Shown piece after piece: positions 15,401 to 63,964 of a stretch of DNA of 64,000 bases. This DNA comes from Polytrichum commune (taxonomy: Eukaryota > Streptophyta > Polytrichopsida > Polytrichales > Polytrichaceae). The position numbers and the translations under genes were made by a program. The stretch spans positions 7,256,501 through 7,320,500 of the forward strand of contig OX485807.1 in NCBI GenBank assembly GCA_950295325.1, read 5' to 3'. Numbering within the stretch: the stretch's first letter is position 1; each line of letters starts with the position of its first letter. The notes under the pieces were generated by a model that ran no database searches, was not told the origin of the DNA, and worked only from the letters and a program-made list of their open reading frames with translations.

Positions 15401-15433
15401 TTTTATGGAAACAAGAAATCACCGGTGTTGGAA
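6453..15433. other. Long AT-rich intergenic region upstream of the immune receptor
   Basis: No host gene could be supported in these 9 kb. Items seen: a (TG)n tract at about 8428-8450; 'cactaaat' repeats at about 9185-9425; a palindromic element at 9273-9355; a GA-rich tract at about 9790-10020 that gives low-complexity frames on both strands; and a 99-codon frame at 10507-10806 (+) starting MVEPEKFDHKREQPKG with no recognisable family. About 12660-13430 has higher GC than its surroundings and looks like foreign or transposon DNA, but it has no identifiable domain or ends. The receptor's promoter must lie in the last 1-2 kb; I see no distinctive regulatory motif there. Confidence 0.4.
9273..9355. 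repeat. Palindromic 83-bp element, copy 1 of 3
   Basis: The ends 'gggcgaactaacccgtacac' and 'gtgtatgggttggtttgccc' are imperfect reverse complements, and inside them 'ggttccttg' pairs with 'caaggaac'. Related copies lie at about 32214-32297 and 41350-41432, also palindromic. A transcript would form a stem of about 30 bp with a short loop. Confidence 0.75.
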
Positions 15434-18400
15434 ATGACGAACTTTCTACGAGTACCAATGGAGTTTGCAAATTTTCCCAATCTATCATTTCCAGAAGAAG
15501 TTTTGAATAGACGACAATGCAAAAATTTGTTGGACAACTTCCGCAAGGGTGTACATGCAATTGAAACAATTGCCCATGGTTCACATGGGAATGTCTTTCG
15601 TCGAATGGAGGAAGACATGCTTTTTGTTGTGAACAAGGCAAAGGGTGTGATAGAAGAATGTTGCAATGATGATTGGTGTCGAGTTGTCGTGAAGCAAATG
15701 AATAACAAAGAGACCTTCAGGGAACTTCTCGAGGACTTTGAGTGTTCTTTCCACACAATGTGCAATGCAATTTCTCATATTTTTCCTAGTCGAAAAACTG
15801 AAGTTTTGAAGATTGAAAGCTCTACAACATTTTTTCCAACGTGCATTGATGAAGTTGAAGAGGACCATAATTCAATGGTTGAAAGGTTTTCAAAGCACTT
15901 GAATATGTGCAAAACTGCAAGTTGCAAAGATTGCACTCTTGTAGGGTACCTAATGGAACTAGTAAAGGGTCTTCAAAGGGCAGAAGGTGGTGAATTGGAT
16001 AGCATCATTTTTCCTCCTAACTACCCTTGCCCTAAATATGGAAGGCAACGTGCTCCTCTGGGTGGAGGTGCATCAGGAAGTGTATATTGCACAAGATGGT
16101 TAGAATTTGATACTGTCACAAAGGTCATCGAAGTCAATGGCCTAGACCATGAAGAAATGATTCAAAATGAAAAAATGGTTTGGAATGAAGCAAGTATTTT
16201 GGGAGGATTGAATCATCCGAACATCATCAAGTTTTTTTGTTGTGGCTTTACTAGGGATCATCCGAACATCAAGTTGTGTTATTGTGGCTTCATGAGGAAA
16301 AACATTCAAGGCAAAAAAAAGAAAATGTTTGAAATTGTCACCGAGCAAGGAACAATGGACTTGTTATGTTTCTTAAATCAACAAACTTCGTTCAATGAAG
16401 AAAATATGATTGATATTATGTTGCAAATCGCAAGCGGAATGTCCTACCTTCACGATATGGAAGTTGCCCATCGTGACTTGAAGCCTGATAATGTTGTCCT
16501 AACTTTAAATGATTCAACTAGTGTGGAACATGTGCATGTGAAGCTAGTTGATTTTGGTATATCCAAAATTGAAGTGACAAGCTTTTCAAAGGTGCCCACT
16601 GGTGAGAATATTTATGGAACTTGTGGGTATATGGCACCTGAGGTTCTTGAAAGAAGTTCAAAGGTAGATGCATTCAAAACAGACGTCTTTAGTTTTGGCA
16701 TGATGTGCTCTGAGATCCTTTTAAGAAAGAGAAATTTCAATGATTATCGTCTTCGTGATTACAAGGATTCTATCTTGAATGGTGAAAGACCCGAGCTCCC
16801 TCAAGCATGTTCGGAAGGATTGAAATCATTGATACATATATGTTGGTCCCGGGAACCTTCAAAAAGGCCAACATTCCTTGATATTCATAAGACTCTAAGA
16901 AAATTAAAGAATGATGCAATCCTCAAGACTTTCCATGATGTTGTAGCTCCCAAGCAATTCAATGAGCCCACATTTCTTTTCGGTTTGAAGCTTGGTAATA
17001 CCACCTCATTATCAAAAATTGAAGAGCAATCAAAAGACACATCATCATATCAAATGCGACATGAGGTGAATACCACTTTGTCAATATTTATTTGCAAAGA
17101 AAGTTGTATGAATCTTGACCAATCATAATATCATAGATTTAACAGTGGAATACAATGTAAGACCTCATGTAACTTATATGATTTGTTCAATAGCAATGAA
17201 TTAACTTGGTATATTGACATTTTGTAGGGGGGACACAACATGAAGGAGGATTTCAAATTGATTGGCCTCAAAGAAAAGATTCCAATATTGGAAAAATCAC
17301 TCCAACGTGTTGGAAGTGTGGGGTTTGTGGGCATGGGTGGAATTGGCAAGTCAACATTTGCGGCTGCTCTAAGTGATCACATCTCCCACCAATATGATGC
17401 GACGGTCTTTGTAAATGCCTTCAAAGATGAAAGTTGTACTTTTGTAGTGAAATACAACCTACAAAATGTGAAAGTGCTACCTGAAACCAAAACATTAAAG
17501 GAAGGACGAGAGATTTTGACCCAATTACAAAGCACACAAAAAATCCTTATTCTTGTGGACAATGTTGGTGAGGCAAACCAACTCAATGAACTATTGGGCA
17601 ATCATAAATTTCAAGATGGCGATGGAAGTAAACTCATTGCCACTTCTCGTGAATGGAAGTCCTTGGAAGCATATGTACATGTGGTTGGTAAAGTGGATGT
17701 GAAAACCCTTGATGGGCAACAATCGTTGGAATTATTTTCAATGCATGCAAATTTTACAACCAACCAACCATGCTTGCCATACTTGACATATGTAGTGAAG
17801 AAAATTGTGAGCGCTTGTGATGGACTCCCGTTGAGTTTGGAGGTGATGGGTAGTTCCTTAAATGGGGAAAAACGTTTGAGAATATGGGAGCGAAGATTGC
17901 AAAGATTGTTGAGGGCAAGGCATGATGGAAGTGAAGATCGTAGAATTTGGAATACATTACGCACAAGTTTTGATGAGCTCAATGAAAGGGAAAAGAACAT
18001 GTTCTTGGATATATCTTGTTTCTTTTGCAAAGACTCATGGATTGGTGGCTTGCAATCTACAAAAGAGACTATACTTAGATGCTTTGATGATGATGATAAA
18101 AGCATCATAGATCAAAGTTTTGAAAGGCTACAAGACAAATCATTGCTAAAAGTTGACGAATATGGTGGTTTGGATATGCATGATCAATTGCAGGATATGG
18201 GTCGTATGATTGTGGAAAAAGAATATCAAGGCTCTCGAATATGGGATTTTTCTTCATCCACATTCATTGATTATTGTAATCGAAAGGTATGTGGCACACA
18301 AATGGATGGTTTTACAAAATCATTATGAAGTTATGACTTGAATTTAGAATTGTAACCATAACTTAGAAAAACTAAGATTTGAAAATAAATGTTCCATTGT

Positions 18401-20942
18401 CTAATATTTGGTTTTCATGCAGGATACAAGATTGATTGAAGGCATTTCATTTACAAATATTGAGAAAGTATTGACATTTACAACAACTATACAACTGCAA
18501 GGTCTACGATTGTTAAGCGTTCAAAATTGCGAGGATGTGTACCTTCTTTTTTCTATCCTCATTAGAACAACCAAACTCAAAAGGTTAAGGATCCATTTTA
18601 ATACGGAATGTGATAATTTTTGGGCAATGCAAGAGAGATTCAACAATAATATTAAAAAAATTGCCAAAAATCATTTGAAAAAGTTAAGTGTCCTTGAAAT
18701 ATTCAACGGCCATATTTCAAAATCTCTTCCATTTGATGTTCTCCATTTTACAACACTCAAAGAACTTAAATTTATGGGTTGTGAAACATTGGATAGGTTT
18801 CCAAATGGACTTCAAAAAATAGTATCCTTGGAGGACTTATACATAACACGATGCAAGTCATTGAAGATGATCCCGGAGGGATTAGGAGGTTTGACATGCT
18901 TGAAGAAACTTGGTATGTGGGAATGCGAGGCCTTGGAAGAATTTCCGTCCGGAGTGTGCACTCTTGTGGCATTGGAAGAATTGGATTTTCGTGGATGCAA
19001 ATCCTTGAAGATGATCCGAGAGGGACTAGGGGGTTTGACATGTTTGAAGAAACTTGACATGTGGGAATGCGAGGCCTTGGAAGCATTTCCGTCCGGAGTG
19101 TGCACTCTTCTAGCATTGGAGGAATTGAATTTTTGTGGATGCAAATCCTTGAAGATGATCCCAGAGGGACTAGGAGGTTTGACATGTTTGAAGAAACTTG
19201 GTATGTGGAAATGCGAGGCCTTGGAAGAATTTCCGTCCGGAGTGTGCACTCTTGTGGCATTGGAGCAATTGAATTTTCGTGGATGCAAATTGTTGAAGAT
19301 GATCCCGGACGGCCTAGGGGGTTTGACATGTTTGAAGAAACTTGCTATGTCAAAATGCGAGGCCTTGGAAGAATTTCCGTTCGGAGTATGCACTCTTGTG
19401 GCATTGGAGGAATTGAGATTTCATGAATGCAAATCCTTGAAGATGATCCCGGAGGGACTAGGGGGTTTGACCTGCTTGAAGAGACTTCGTATGTCGAAAT
19501 GCGAGGCCTTGGAAGAATTTCCGTCCGGAGTGTGCACTCTTGTGGCATTGGAGGAATTGAATTTTCGTGGATGCAAATCCTTGAAGATGATCCCAAAAGG
19601 ACTAGGGGGTTTGACATGTTTGAAGAAACTCTACATGTGGGAATGCGAGGCCTTGGAAGAATTTCCGTCCGGAGTGTGCACTCTTATGGCATTGGAGGAA
19701 TTGAAATTTAATGGATGCAAATCCTTGAAGATGATCCCGGAGGGACTAGGGGGTTTGACATGTTTGAAGAAACTCTACATGTGGGAATGCGAGGCCTTGG
19801 AAGAATTTCCGTCCGGAGTGTGCACTCTTATGGCATTGGAGGAATTGAAATTTAATGGATGCAAATCCTTGAAGATGATCCCGGAGGGACTAGGGGGTTT
19901 GACATGTTTGAAGAAACTCTACATGTGGGAATGCGAGGCCTTGGAAGAATTTCCGTCCGGAGTGTGCACTCTTGTGGCATTGGAGGAATTGGCATTTTAT
20001 GAATGCAAATCCTTGAAAATGATCCCCAAGGGATTAGGGGGTTTGACATGTTTGAAGAAACTTGGTATGTCGAAATGCGAGGCCTTGGAAGAATTTCCGT
20101 CCGGAGTGTGCACTCTTGTGTCATTGGAGGAATTGGATTTTCATGGATGCAAATCCTTGAAAATGATCCCGGAGGGACTAGGAGGTTTGACATGTTTGAA
20201 GAAACTCTACATGTGGGAATGCGAGGCCTTGGAAGAATTTCCGTCCGGAGTGTGCACTCTTATGGCATTGGAGGAATTGAAATTTTATGGATGCAAATCC
20301 TTGAAGATGATCCCGGAGGGACTAGGGGGTTTGACATGTTTGAAGAAACTTGACATGTGGGAATGCGAGGCCTTGGAAGAATTTCCGTCCGGAGTGTGCA
20401 CTCTTCTAGCATTGGAGGAATTGAATTTTGGTGGATGCAAATCCTTGAAGATGATCCAAGAGGGACTAGGAGGTTTGACATGTTTGAAGAAACTTGGTAT
20501 GTGGAAATGCGAGGCCTTGGAAGAATTTCCGTCCGGAGTGTGCACTCTTGTGGCATTGGAGCAATTGAATTATCGTGGATGCAAATTGTTGAAGATGATC
20601 CCGGACGGCTTAGGGGGTTTGACATGTTTGAAGAAACTTGCTATGTCAAAATGCGAGGCCTTGGAAGAATTTCCGTTCGGAGTATGCACTCTTGTGGCAT
20701 TGGAGGAATTGAAATTTAATGGATGCAAATCCTTGAAGATGATCCCGGAGGGACTAGGGGGTTTGACCTGCTTGAAGAGACTTTGTATGTCGAAATGCGA
20801 GGCCTTGGAAGAATTTCCGTCCGGAGTGTGCACTCTTGTGGCATTGGAGGAATTGAATTTTCGTGGATGCAAATCCTTGAAGATGATCCCGGACGGCCTA
20901 GGGGGTTTGACATGTTTGAAGAAACTTGCTATGTCAAAATGA
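15434..20942 (+). CDS. Kinase-NBS-LRR (PNL-class) intracellular immune receptor
   Basis: The model has three exons: 15434-17065, 17228-18286 and 18423-20942 (about 1736 aa), with canonical GT-AG introns in phase 0. Residues 1-200 form a helical region. The kinase starts with GGGASGSV (about 210) and has HRDLKPDN (346), DFG (373) and APE (401), all intact; a lysine in VTKV fits the ATP-binding position. The NB-ARC domain has GMGGIGKST (579), the kinase-2 run ILILVDNV, GSKLIATS, GLPL, FLDISCFF and MHD (861-863). LRRs follow, and from 18852 (residue 1041) they become near-identical 48-residue pairs. Kinase-NBS-LRR proteins are described from mosses. By analogy it would sense pathogen effectors in the cytosol through the LRRs, switch on nucleotide exchange, and signal through the kinase or N-terminus. 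The start is the first in-frame ATG. A 14-residue segment around HPNI is tandemly duplicated in the kinase N-lobe. The frame ends at TGA-TAG within LRR unit 15. Function is inferred from domains only. Confidence 0.9.
18852..20939 (+). repeat. Array of 14.5 near-identical 144-bp LRR units inside the receptor
   Basis: Units start at 18852 + 144(n-1), each beginning at the TGC codon of 'CKSLKMIPEGLGGLTCLKK'. Each unit encodes two 24-residue LRRs, the second containing CEALEEFPSGVCTLVALEEL. No length change occurs across 14.5 units. Variation is concentrated at a few codons: xMWEC or xMSKC, and xFRG, xFNG or xFHE, which fall near the variable face of the LRR. Units 2-5 share private variants with units 11-14 (LLALEELNF; LALEQLN; LLKMIPDG with FPFGV; LKRL), suggesting duplication of a block of nine units (1296 bp). 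Confidence 0.95.
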
Positions 20943-22280
20943 TAGGCCTTGGAAGAATTTCCGTCCGGAGTGTGCACTCTTGTGGCATTGGAGGAATTGA
21001 ATTTTCGTGGATGCAAATCCTTAAAGATGATCCCGGAGGGACTAGGGGGTTTGACATGTTTGAAGAAACTTGACATGTGGAAATGCGAGGCCTTGGAAGA
21101 ATTTCCGTCCGGAGTGTGCACTCTTGTGGCATTGGAGGAATTGAATTTTCGTGGTTGCAAATCCTTGAAGATGATCCCAAAAGGACTAGGGGGTTTGACA
21201 CGTTTGAAGAAATTCTACATGTGGGAATGCGAGGCCTTGGAAGAATTTCCGTCCGGAGTGTGCACTCTTGTGTCATTGGAGGAATTGAGTTTTTATAGAT
21301 GCAAATCGTTGAAGATGATCCCGGAGGGATTAAGGGGTTTCACATGTTTGAAGAAACTTGACATGTGGGAATGTAAGGCCTTGGAAGAATTTCTGTCCGG
21401 AGTGTGCACTCTTGTGGCATTAGAGGAATTGAATTTTCGTGGATGCAAATCCTTGAAGATGATCCCGGAGGGACTAGGGGGTTTGACATGTTTGAAGAAA
21501 CTTGGTATGTGGGAATGCGAGGCCTTGGAAGAATTTACGTGCGGAGTGTGCACTCTTGTGGTATTGGAGGAATTGAATTTTTATGGATGCAAATCCTTGA
21601 AAATGATCCGGAGGGACTAGGGGGTTTGACATGTTTGAAGAAACTCTACATGTGGGAATGCGAGGCCTCGGAAGAATTTCCATGAGGAATAAGCACGCTC
21701 GTGGCATTGGAGGAATTGGCATTTAATGGATGCAAATCCTTTAGGAAGATCCCGGAAGGATTAAAGGGTTCGGGTCGTTTGTAGAATTGTATATGAGGGA
21801 GCACAAGGCCTTGGAAGAATTTCCATCTGGAGTTTGAATGCTTGTGGTGTTGGAAGAACTGGTAGGTTGTTAATGTGAATCTTTGATGAAGAGCTCCAAA
21901 GGATCAATGGGTTTGGCACATTTGAAGAAACTCTATATGTTGGAATGCGAGGCCTTGGAGGAATGTCCATCTGGAGTGTGGACGCTTGTGGCGTTGAATG
22001 AATTGGTAGATTGTTAATGTGAATCTTTGATGAAGAGCTCCAAAGGATCAATAGGTTTGGCACATTCGAAGAAACTTTGTATTTGGGAATGCAAGGCATT
22101 GGAAGAATTTCCATCCTGATTGCGCATGCTCATGGTGTTTGAAGATGTGTATTTTGATGAATGCAATATGTGAAGAAGAGTCATGAAGAATTAAAGGGTT
22201 TGATATGTTTGAAGAAACTCTACCGATGGGAATTGTAGGCCTTGGAAGAATATCTATCCGGATTTATACTGTTGATTCCA
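20940..22280 (+). pseudogene. Decayed downstream LRR units beyond the stop codons
   Basis: After the tandem stops at 20940-20945 the same frame stays open through units 15b-19 with no length change. Unit 20 (21588) has lost one C in 'atgatcccgg', which shifts the frame and brings a stop at about 21618. Further units to about 22280 are progressively diverged, with phrases such as 'tttgatgaagagctccaaag' repeated at about 21883 and 22027. Position 20940 has TGA TAG where sister units have TGC GAG, so two substitutions made the stops. Either the receptor is truncated with a decaying tail, or the whole gene is a recent pseudogene; the intact upstream domains favour truncation. Confidence 0.85.
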
Positions 22281-25557: not shown

Positions 25558-26151
25558 CAGGGTTGTCTATTGTGTCGTGACAGAGGGTAATCCCGACATA
25601 ATGTCGTGCCGTCACGACACGTATCCGTCACGACATTATGATGGATGATGTCTTTATCCTGCCGGACTTGAATTTTACCGAATTTTTTGTGTATTTACAT
25701 TACCCCATTGCGGACACGTAGGAGTTACGATGTCCACGTGTGATGACATGTCAGCAAAGTAGAGGTAAAGTGGGGAATAAAATTACTAGCTCCCGTCCGC
25801 CCTCCCGTCCGCCCCCGTTCCCCGTACCCTAACCCCGCTCCCTTAGCCCATTAACATGTCCCTAACCCGTTCCCTATGTTCCCTCCCGTCCGACCCCCCC
25901 GTCCGACCTTTTCCCGTCCTCCCTTTTCCCGTCCGACCCCCCGTCCTCCCTCCCGTTCCCCTCCCCTGTTCCCATCCATCCCGTCCTATCCAAACCTCCT
26001 AAACCTGCTCCCATCCCCCGCTCCCCACGTTCCCACACGCTCCCCGCATTCCCCCCCGTCCGCCCCCCCCCCCCCCCCGTTCCCACTTACCTTCCCGTCC
26101 TCCCTCCCCGTCCTCCCCCCCGTCTGACCCCTCCCCACCCCGTCCGACCCT

Positions 26152-26189
<38 letters not shown>

Positions 26190-26572
26190 TCCGACCCTTC
26201 CCCCCGCCCGACCCTCACCCCCATCCGACCCCATGTTCCCCCGCGTTCCCACACGTCCGCCCACGCTCCCCACCCGTTCCCCCCGTCCGACCTACACCCT
26301 CCTTAGTAATATTTTATTACTTTGATTTTAACAAAATGGTAAACACAATGGCAAAATGGTTTACATGCCAAGGGAAATATGCACATCCACGTTGGCATTT
26401 TTTGCCACATAGGACGCCACCTTGGCAAGAAGGTAAGTATTTTACCCACCCTACTAGGTTGACCCTAGTTTGACCCTACGAGGAGCCTATTGTGTCGTGA
26501 CGGAGGGGTCCGACCCGGCACGACGCATCATGACGGCACGACCCCGTCATGACGTCGCGATAGACAACCCTG
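25558..26572. mobile_element. TIR element with a C-rich 'cccgtccgacc' satellite core
   Basis: The left end 'cagggttgtctattgtgtcg' (25558) matches the reverse complement of the right end (ending 26572) over 'cagggttgtctat', with weaker similarity further in: both ends are full of 'cgtgacg' and 'cacgac' motifs. CAGGG termini are common in hAT elements, but I could not find a convincing 8-bp target duplication. The core (about 25790-26300) is a degenerate array of 'cccgtccgacc'-type units with a run of about 30 C at 26152-26188. Frames over the core encode only Pro/Arg/Ser or Gly/Arg low complexity and are not genes. Confidence 0.65.
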
Positions 26573-27703: not shown

Positions 27704-30555
27704 TTACATTTTCTTCTTCTGCATCTTCTGTGCCTCTACTTTCTTTGCCATGGTCTCAAAAATACTACCATCAAACATACCACGAATCAACTCCTTGGAA
27801 ACAAATCCCTCCCTATCTTTCAGCAACAAGTAGGTGATACCCCACTCCAGTTTTTCGGCAGTCCTGTTTTTCAAAACATCAATCTGGTTCAGGAACTTGA
27901 CCTTGACACAAAATCAGGTTTGCTGTATGTGCATCAAGACTGCAATTGAACATGTAAATATCAAAAGATTAACGGGTAGGCACATGCTCACTTACCAACC
28001 GAATGGGTCGTACGCATTGCGATTAGCATTGGTCATTGCATACAATTCATTGAAATGAAGTCGTGATTTGTCAGTCTTAGCATACTTGCTGAAGAGCTCC
28101 TCAAACTTTTGAGGCACAAACCTGTTGCAATGACATTTTAGTATAAAGACATGATTGAACATGCACGTTGTAGTTGATTTCAAACATCCTGGAGGATAAA
28201 GTGATAGTGGCAACCAAAACAAATGAAAAATTACAGATGAGAACAAAGAATGGTGAATGTATTCGTTCAATATAATTCCATGACCAGAATCTAAACAACA
28301 CAGTAAACTTCTGAAAGCTCTTACTACATGCTCTATCAAGTGAAAAATGTTACCTCCCCTCCGTATCGTACACTTCAGAGTCACTGCCATGTTTTGCTTT
28401 GTGAATATTCTTTATGTAAATTGGAAACATGAGACTCGGAATCCAAGTCTGCACACAAAAAGTACACACCTTCCACTTGTCAAAAAGATAAAACACACTT
28501 GCAGCCAAAGCAAAATCATCTGGAATGAATAATATTCAACATTCAGCTCAGTGATCTTTTTTGAGACCATACTAAATTTACATCAGAATCAATGTAGAGC
28601 AAATGCATGCTCATGCCCGCCAAGTTCTTGCTTCTTGAATAGTACAATGACAAGGAATTACACAAGGCAAAACATGAAGCTTGCCCTCTAACCAGTCACC
28701 TCACCTCCAGGGTAGAATAGCTAAATGCTCCATTGATGATAACCATGGCAAGGAAACTGATGAGCAAGTTAAACCCAATAGCGCGAAATCCTGCAATCAC
28801 ATAATAAATCATCCCACCTTGCCTGTAAGGCTACTGAAATACAATAAAATCATCCAAAAGACTCTAGACATTCTAAAAATTAGCATTCATCTAATGTAAC
28901 CTCTACAAAGGTTCACCAGACACCGTCTCTGGTGGTGACCCTGACCCTAAGAGAAGCTTTACAACACACTCACATGCCAAATCAAGTAGTCGATCATGCT
29001 ATCACAAGTCTATTCAATAATTATCAACAATGTCCCACATTTGCTAAGAAATCATCATATACCTTGGAAGGTCTCCCATGGGTAGATAATTCCATCCTTG
29101 TTAATATCAAAGAACGCAATGTGCTGCTGGAGCACTGAGTAGCCATTGTTCTTGTAACCTGGGGTTCCATGGGGATGGTCACCGTCCACAGCCTCCAATG
29201 CTCGTGGTACGTCTGCATTCATTGACATCACACCAATTTTAATTTGAAGTAGAATTAAATTTACCATCATAGTTGCAGGATCATGATATAAATTATATCC
29301 ATATTTTCAACAAAAATTCACTTTGGCATACATTCTATGACATACAGTCATGGAGACGACATGCTTGCACAAAGTGGCAAACCAGGTTTTGCAAATATGC
29401 ACTACTGCAGTCTTGGCTCATAGCAACAGCGCATGAACAAATGTATGACAAATGTACAAATGTCCGTTTTTACAGCGGTTTGGAAAAAAAAAAAGGTTTC
29501 TAAATATTGGTATATTTACACAAAACATGCGGTTCACTTGAGCAAAAGACATTATAGCGCGCTAAATGTGTTGCAAATGCCCCTAGGTTTGTAACGCCCA
29601 TCACCGATGACTTTTGAGGGGTTTTGCAATGAATAGATTTGCATGTATTTCTGGCCACAATCATGCAGCAGTAATATATCGTCGCCCTTGCAATGTCCTT
29701 GGATTAACTTAGCTCACATCCAGACATGTCCAGCAATTCGATAACGTTCAACCAATTGTCAAGAAATCCAAATGCGTATCCAGAGACGGAGAATCAGCAA
29801 GACATACGTGAACTTACACTTCGCGGATCCAAAACAGAGTCGCATGTATGACTACACCCAACATGCATGTACGTTTTTGCATCAATCATGCAAAAAGTTT
29901 CTCATCGATCTTGCAATGTCCCGTTGGATTGGCTTAGCTCATATGCAGACATGTCTAGCAATACGACAACACTCAACCGAAGGTATGCAGAAACAGAGAA
30001 TTAACAAAATACACGTGAACTTATAATATTTCTCGGATCGAGTACATAGTTCCAGGTATGAATAAACCCAACATCACCCAACGTGCATAAATATTTTTGC
30101 AACAACCACGCAACAGTAGTTTCTCATCTTGCTTACAATGTCCTTGGATTAACTTGGCTCATGAGCAGACATGTCCAAAAATTCTGAAATATAACGGAAC
30201 CACTTGTCAAAAACCCCAAATGGGTATCCAGAGAAACTAGAGAAGAGGAGGACACATGTGAACTTTTCTTACAATCAGGAGATCATCAAGTAACACAGTT
30301 CCATGTATAAATCACATGATAATTATCCAGCAAGCATGCAGAGAGACCGAACATTCATCATATTTCCCCCCATTTACTCTCCACAACATTAACCAGATGG
30401 AAGAGGAGATTGGAAGGAGATAAGTATAATGATGCATACGAGGCTTGGGGATGCCGAGGCCGCCGGCGCTTACAATCCGCTCATACGTAACTGGCGCCTT
30501 GGGCGCCACTGTCTGCAAACTCTCTCTCCCCTGCCCCGTCTCCGCCTGCACACTC

Positions 30556-63663: not shown

Positions 63664-63964
63664 ATTGTGGTTGTGAGTTCACCTGTGGGTTTTGGGTTTT
63701 GGGTTTTGGGTTTTGTGGATCCGTGGGTTTTGGGTTTTGGGTTTTTGGTTGTGCGTAGATTGTTGCATACCCTTGGTCGAAGGGGAGATGATCGCGGCCG
63801 AGGGAGGTGATCGCGGCTTACACTTCGTCGAAGGGGAGGTGATCGCAGCATACACTTCGTCGAAGGGGAGGTGATCGCGGCATACGGACGGTCGAAGGAG
63901 AGGTAACCAGCTTCGAGGGAGGTGATCGCGTCAGCCGAAGGAGGTGGATCGTTGCGGCCGTGGG
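63664..63964. repeat. TTTTGGG short tandem repeat followed by a 30-40-bp minisatellite
   Basis: About 63684-63751 is (TTTTGGG)n, interrupted once; it is a relative of, but not identical to, the plant telomere repeat TTTAGGG. About 63776-63964 has five or six diverged copies of a unit containing 'gtcgaaggggaggtgatcgc' followed by a variable 'ggcatacac' part. Frames over both tracts are repeat artefacts. Confidence 0.75.

Follow-up and report, generated by a model that had tools for sequence, protein, structure and literature searches.

The 64-kb window of Polytrichum commune DNA analysed here, by which we mean the whole stretch, carries on its forward strand a gene whose predicted protein, with kinase, NB-ARC and LRR domains, marks it as an immune receptor of the PNL class of mosses (Table 1). 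Its domain order of N-terminal kinase, central NB-ARC and C-terminal LRR and its two predicted phase-0 introns underlie this assignment, since they fit the available part of the PNL description, in which the three domains follow in this order and each of the two domain boundaries carries a phase-0 intron (Xue et al. 2012, PMC3352924). Of the 407.81 Mb of this genome, 406.07 Mb lie in seven contigs, which would agree with the seven chromosomes suggested for the ancestral moss (PMC13120521). The 5' limit of the kinase exon is that of the mechanical open frame, with an in-frame ATG at 15434, and further 5' exons are possible. On reading, this exon contains the glycine loop, HRDLKPDN, DFG and APE motifs, while the NB-ARC exon contains the P-loop GMGGIGKST, GLPL and MHD and has Roq1 as its top PDB sequence match (7.8e-29). 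The LRR exon matches Pfam LRR_14 at 8.7e-81 and forms a single open frame from 18423 to 20942 with no introns between the array units; the 144 bp preceding unit 1 differ from the unit consensus at 78 of 144 nt.

Table 1. Features of the predicted receptor gene and its repeat array, in window positions
Feature	Position	Strand	Remarks
Kinase exon	15425..17065	+	Pfam Pkinase 9e-42; frame open
Intron 1 (predicted)	17066..17227	+	162 bp; phase 0; GTGAAT ... TTTTGTAG; from splice-site reading and frame check
NB-ARC and winged-helix exon	17228..18286	+	Pfam NB-ARC 1.8e-22, WHD_ROQ1 4.5e-11
Intron 2 (predicted)	18287..18422	+	136 bp; phase 0; GTATGT ... TTCATGCAG; from splice-site reading and frame check
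LRR exon start, diverged LRRs ahead of the array	18423..18851	+	shares the open frame of the array
Units 1-14	18852..20867	+	144 bp each, two 24-residue LRRs
Unit 15, first part	20868..20945	+	closes with tandem stops TGA TAG at 20940-20945
Unit 15 remainder and units 16-19	20946..21587	+	past the stop; frame-open
Decayed tail units	21588..22161	+	frame slip, stops; 143-bp and 287-bp spacings; TRF end 22005
Duplicated block, copy 1 (about units 2-5)	18992..19594	+	603 bp; differs at 11 sites from the stretch lying 1296 bp further along
Duplicated block, copy 2 (about units 11-14)	20288..20890	+	same 603-bp match

The gene was compared with 17 close relatives picked for similarity, which together with it provide the 18 arrays discussed below. 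The dN/dS of the kinase exon was 0.36-0.74 against 16 of the 17 paralogues (some matches are partial, and C2c holds one stop), the remaining one, C2e, giving no kinase-exon match. For the NB-ARC exon all 17 could be matched, several of them partially and with one stop each in C3d and C3f, at a dN/dS of 0.28-0.71, and the stretch of the LRR exon ahead of the array gave 0.36-0.93 against the 17.

Elsewhere in the window, ten of the 20 other ORFs (at least 100 codons, outside the gene) were submitted to Pfam, with a partial caleosin match (5.9e-12) to a minus-strand ORF at 27992-28390 as the single match. Short tandem repeats rich in C fill about 0.5 kb at 25790-26289 and contain an uninterrupted stretch of 36 C, and a degenerate TGGGTTT repeat resembling the plant telomere type lies at 63686-63750, distant from any contig end. 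Ten open frames of 113-196 codons, antisense to the array or in another plus frame of it, occur within 18772-21276, as expected because a long stop-free unit is repeated.

Organization of the repeat array

TRF describes the array as a period of 144 over 18850-22005, with 21.9 copies and 88% matches. The initial annotation had placed 14.5 units of exactly 144 bp at 18852-20939, and the units are in frame as it described, but the array does not end there, continuing to about 22005 (21.9 units). Position 20939 is the last base ahead of the TGA TAG, so that interval covers only the part of the array that precedes the stop. The open frame 18408-20942 spans units 1-14 and half of unit 15, where it is ended by the tandem stops at a site that reads TGC GAG (Cys-Glu) in most other regular units. 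The array frame then reopens at 20949-21620, through unit 19, and units 16-19 lie 2-13 nt away from the consensus; after unit 19 the register slips by way of a 143-bp spacing.

Units 1-14 (48 residues per unit; 672 aa) have a mean amino-acid identity of 86.4%, which lies above the threshold for high internal conservation (HIC) of at least 85% identity over at least 100 aa. Their differences had been described as confined to the variable face. This is largely so, as eight of the 48 codons, each of them on the predicted concave strand, account for 65% of the amino-acid differences, but codons 7 (P/R/Q) and 8 (E/D/K; 0-based) vary too and lie off the exposed face. Two structure models of low confidence (mean pLDDT 60 and 64) both show strands every 24 residues, a period that fits the LxxLxLxx consensus, and in the second model most repeats have their predicted strands at unit residues 19-23 and 43-47. 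The hits of a fold search were LRR proteins of a general kind (LGR4/5, SHOC2 and others), which is informative on the fold alone. Near-identical units with their variable residues together on one face would suit a TALE-like programmable code, with a linear ligand read element by element, one per unit. The fold, however, is that of an LRR solenoid, whose relatives are known to bind proteins by surface and not via a unit code, and we regard a code of this kind as highly improbable.

The pairing of units 2-5 with units 11-14 that was noticed at the outset is borne out: unit pairs 2/11, 3/12, 4/13 and 5/14 differ by 4, 2, 4 and 1 nt, compared with a mean pairwise difference of 13.2 nt among the 19 regular units, and the block match is unequalled in 2000 shuffles of unit order (p=0.0005). 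Its interpretation as a duplication of nine units is ruled out, the match being limited to four units at a nine-unit offset; units 6-10 are 17, 9, 11, 17 and 11 nt away from units 15-19, about the average distance. The 11 mismatches between the block copies, placed by hand, touch ten codons, nine of which replace the amino acid and five of which are face codons. The four-unit block test gives p<0.05 in 7 of the 18 arrays, namely the window array (WIN), C6a, C6c, C3b, C2a, C3e and C3f. It superseded an earlier test of mean similarity per lag, which was weak (window p=0.042) and in which only WIN and C3f fell below 0.05 among the 18 arrays.

Distribution across the NB-ARC family

Matches to the unit occur in at least 576 places in the genome, and matches to the NB-ARC exon number at least 113. 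Counting units that match the window consensus at 66% identity or more, the 18 arrays contain 12-62 units each. Their basic period is 144, from which 15 of them depart at one to three spacings, the C7 array is interrupted by two gaps of about 2.4 kb each, and only 8 of the 18 reach a mean amino-acid identity of at least 85%. The longest and most uniform array read is C2a (L009 and L011, G000 C2:13166000-13179500), with 62 units, the highest amino-acid identity and 44 identical pairs out of 1830 among 61 units. A 143-bp spacing puts C2a out of frame after unit 3, and since this array is homogeneous yet frame-broken, homogenization alone is no proof of function.

Eight loci from more distant NB-ARC clades were chosen by hand as possible array-free controls, and seven of them proved to have arrays. 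The exception, L027, is a partial NB-ARC match with two stops that has no array within its 8 kb and a unit match about 8 kb beyond that stretch. Twenty further loci, hand-picked at about every fifth row of the remaining NB-ARC matches, all have LRR arrays in the 2.2 kb that follow downstream, the period being 144 in 19 of them and 72 in the other; four of the 20 show fewer than six copies in the 2.2-kb stretch, one of these at 71% matches.

A divergent relative, L025 (G000 C6:541500-549500), has a 72-bp single-LRR array of 36.5 copies, in frame with an apparent kinase and NB-ARC, with one in-frame stop and a non-repeat C-terminal tail. NB-ARC matches of about 63-65% identity are clustered at G000 C6 ~29.8-31.5 Mb, most of them holding a single TGA that may represent an unrecognized intron or an inherited stop.

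Turnover between paralogous loci

The clearest comparison of unit number is offered by C6a and C6b, two loci separated by about 63 kb, whose flanks show 98.86% identity over 4548 bp and which possess 30 and 16 units, respectively. Their first six units correspond pairwise, with at most one difference per pair. When jumps to any position were permitted but penalized, the 11 regular units of C6b could be drawn from C6a with one in-register jump of ten units, from unit 7.47 to unit 17.47, and 23 mismatches in 1784, two before the jump and 21 after it. The zero register of this jump is partly expected, because only in-register units are alike. Ten segments were needed to draw C6a from C6b, as would be expected if C6a carries internally repeated blocks; units may have been gained at one locus or lost at the other.

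Two further pairs of loci were compared. C2c and C2d have flanks that are 98.5% identical and carry 16 and 12 units, and three segments were needed to relate them. The window gene has an inverted paralogue about 80 kb away, C5inv (L001; G000 C5:7185500-7193500, minus strand), with flanks 96.1% identical and 15 units against the 22 of the window. Six to eight segments were needed here, two short ones in the decayed terminal part of C5inv being out of register. The NB-ARC of C5inv is interrupted, being found as two overlapping match pieces, one with a stop, and its 14-unit array is open.

The nearest neighbour of a unit lies in its own array for 243.6 of 372 units (ties shared), compared with 27.1 expected. 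The mean distance within an array falls below every between-array mean in only 7 of 18 arrays, as expected from young duplicates that still share unit types. The earlier proposal that arrays of this kind are generated by unequal exchange is well supported by the unit counts of C6a and C6b and the ten-unit jump between them, and falls in its specific form of a nine-unit duplication.

Units duplicated or collapsed by the assembler would be a trivial source of such differences; near-identical arrays are hard to assemble, and C6a includes a four-unit block repeated with zero differences. Set against this, the block copies in the window differ at their 11 sites, the arrays of the family each have their own unit types and the jump between C6a and C6b is in register, and we give an assembly artefact very little credence.

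Variability of the concave face

Ten face codons were chosen from the LxxLxLxx consensus before pairwise diversity was counted, the unit translations having already been seen. For counts of distinct codons a set of eight was used (0-based 18, 20, 22, 23, 42, 44, 46 and 47), which drops two low-variation codons of the ten and corresponds in position to the four sites that the accessible portion of PMC11378527 gives for each LRR of brown algae. The diversity, neighbour, tree, codon, synonymous-variety, four-gamete and identity counts left out units that hold a stop or N or that agree with the reference at fewer than 30 of 48 residues, leaving 372 units over 18 arrays; the spanning-tree count also omitted edges above 6 nt, and for the window array the identity count took units 1-14. 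As pairwise and spanning-tree ratios recount shuffled copies of one variant, distinct-codon counts are relied on instead.

All 18 arrays show more replacement diversity at the ten face codons than at the others. In distinct codons, the eight face codons of the window array give 22N:3S, a ratio of 1.60 (p=0.6 against neutrality), and its non-face codons 20N:19S, a ratio of 0.32 (face versus rest, Fisher p=0.003). Counted separately and summed, the 18 arrays give 407N:73S at the face, a ratio of 1.28 (p=0.06 against neutrality), and 498N:423S at non-face codons, a ratio of 0.36 (p=1.8e-49), with a Fisher p of 2.6e-32 between the two classes; the spanning-tree face ratio is 1.37 (p=0.07). Within arrays the face is clearly freer to vary than the other codons. 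The initial annotation had located replacement variety on the concave LRR face, and it is there that the variety is concentrated; it had also held that invariant copy number and a lack of excess replacement at the exposed positions would speak against exchange, and with paralogues in place of accessions neither was found.

Positive selection on the face codons is suggested by ratios of 1.3-1.6, although not proven. The face might instead be merely unconstrained, within a coding minisatellite homogenized by neutral unequal exchange, and such turnover would fit the face ratio, which is close to 1 without exceeding it significantly. The ratio is 1.13 with units pooled by clade, and 0.54 compared with 0.49 elsewhere when all 18 arrays are pooled, the latter probably reflecting saturation; homogeneous units also survive in the frame-broken C2a. 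Against neutral turnover, single face codons hold up to 16 amino acids, and pairwise-diversity face ratios reach 2.5-4.6 in C2a (frame-broken), C3c, C3d and C3e, although this count repeats shuffled copies. Synonymous variety is also raised near the face codons, at 0.206 compared with 0.107 (p=0.019); 16 of 18 arrays show the rise, which is absent from the window array and C6d. This rise may reflect retained cassettes, which would argue against neutrality, or a local mutation bias that mimics them. We treat purely neutral turnover as a serious but less probable account. A general free shuffling of half-units is not borne out, as four-gamete pairs, the mosaic of two faces within units, occur in only 3 of 18 arrays (C6a, C3b and C2a).

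Stops and the state of the window copy

By hand reading of the spacing and stop data, the open frame stops inside a recognized unit in 11 of 18 arrays, and in the remaining seven it is closed by an irregular stretch, an insertion or a slip of the frame. Seven of the 11 stops fall at one of the ten face codons; tryptophan codons, which are common at the face, are one change from a stop. A receptor of flexible length should tolerate late stops, and some copies of the array are surely dead.

The window copy could be among the latter, a decaying pseudogene in which the 14.5-unit ORF is a relic. Its tandem stops are followed by frame-open units as far as unit 19, its register slips beyond that point, and its inverted neighbour has an interrupted NB-ARC. 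However, the kinase, the NB-ARC and 14 units are all open, a frame ended by a stop within a unit is the pattern of those 11 arrays, and the kinase and NB-ARC show purifying selection against the paralogues, although a very recent loss would escape such a comparison. Decay is, on balance, unlikely, and we judge the window copy more likely to be a shortened working receptor than a relic.

Proposed mechanism and significance

We consider it likely that near-identical 144-bp units serve as the sensor of this PNL receptor, resized and homogenized by unequal exchange while the face is left free to differ. Misaligned units would exchange homologously, through unequal crossing over and gene conversion, so that units are added, deleted and homogenized, and such exchange would mostly keep the frame intact. 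Selection or relaxed constraint would let the ligand-facing codons differ, giving rise to new recognition surfaces. The receptor itself would presumably act like other NLRs, the array being its sensor, the NB-ARC its switch and the kinase its signalling part. A stop in a late unit would then mean a shorter solenoid rather than destruction, and the units past it would decay.

A broader and more speculative possibility, which we advance only tentatively, is that the NLR family, with its at least 113 NB-ARC matches, acts as a self-renewing LRR library in which in-register resizing outpaces divergence of the flanks, face cassettes are retained and the units after the stop form a reserve from which later exchange could return units to the coding part. 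If so, the length and order of the arrays should differ between individuals, and perhaps between shoots, as they do between het-d/het-e alleles. The question of how plants without adaptive immunity match their pathogens could be approached here through long-read counts of units. Near-identical LRR units that tolerate a few changes of face codons also offer natural models for the design of repeat proteins.

Comparison with known systems

Changes in LRR number by unequal crossing over are familiar from angiosperm NLRs such as flax L/M and RPP5, and the same process is proposed here. Those genes are known for a few partial duplications, in contrast to the family-wide near-identical arrays of this moss.

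Within the mosses, the available parts of PMC3352924 and PMC3991678 make no mention of near-identical tandem LRR units or of arrays of tens, the word ‘tandem’ being absent from both, and the literature searched, which leaves most subscription journals outside it, yielded no description of near-identical LRR arrays in plant NLRs. A moss kinase N-terminus gave a modest and variable response in Nicotiana, according to the accessible text of PMC11218826.

Two systems outside the land plants share the LRR unit. As far as the portion of PMC11378527 at hand describes them, brown algal ROCO genes shuffle LRR exons of 72 bp in variable number, as here, and PAML predicts four concave-face sites per LRR to be under positive selection; they hold one LRR per exon and a ROC-COR GTPase, whereas the moss gene has an intron-free array and an NB-ARC switch. 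The 90-bp-exon LRR genes of Tetrahymena likewise have long arrays of exact LRR repeats for which unequal exchange is inferred, but their units are separate exons with phase-2 introns, and the available part of PMC6564038 does not describe them as NLRs.

In its way of working the window gene resembles the fungal HIC-NLRs, in which, in the text available to us, at least 85% identity over 100 residues, variation in repeat number and selection on face codons occur together (PMC4986451, PMC12222747). In Podospora the alleles of het-d/het-e, which are of this type, differ and unequal crossing over has been proposed, again in the accessible parts of these papers (PMC4986451, PMC12222747). A 2014 survey of ANK, TPR and WD repeats, as far as its available text goes, found no LRR in fungal NLRs, and high internal conservation in 0.4% of such repeats in green plants (PMC4986451). 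The window gene shares with these receptors a sensor of repeats at least 85% identical, few differing face codons and a variable repeat number. Judging from the available accounts, the repeats of HIC-NLRs are WD40, ANK or TPR and those of the window gene LRR, and the number variation known there is between alleles, whereas paralogues are compared here (30 versus 16 and 16 versus 12 units). Because of the repeat type, we prefer to say that the window gene works in a similar way without filing it as a member: on its sequence it is classed as a putative PNL gene with an HIC-like sensor built of LRRs, and it is probably best read as a plant counterpart of these fungal receptors. Rapid renewal of recognition surfaces through the exchange of repeats is already known from fungal NLRs with WD40, ANK or TPR repeats; the same design would appear here, probably of independent origin, in a plant NB-ARC receptor with LRRs and at 20 of 20 sampled loci.
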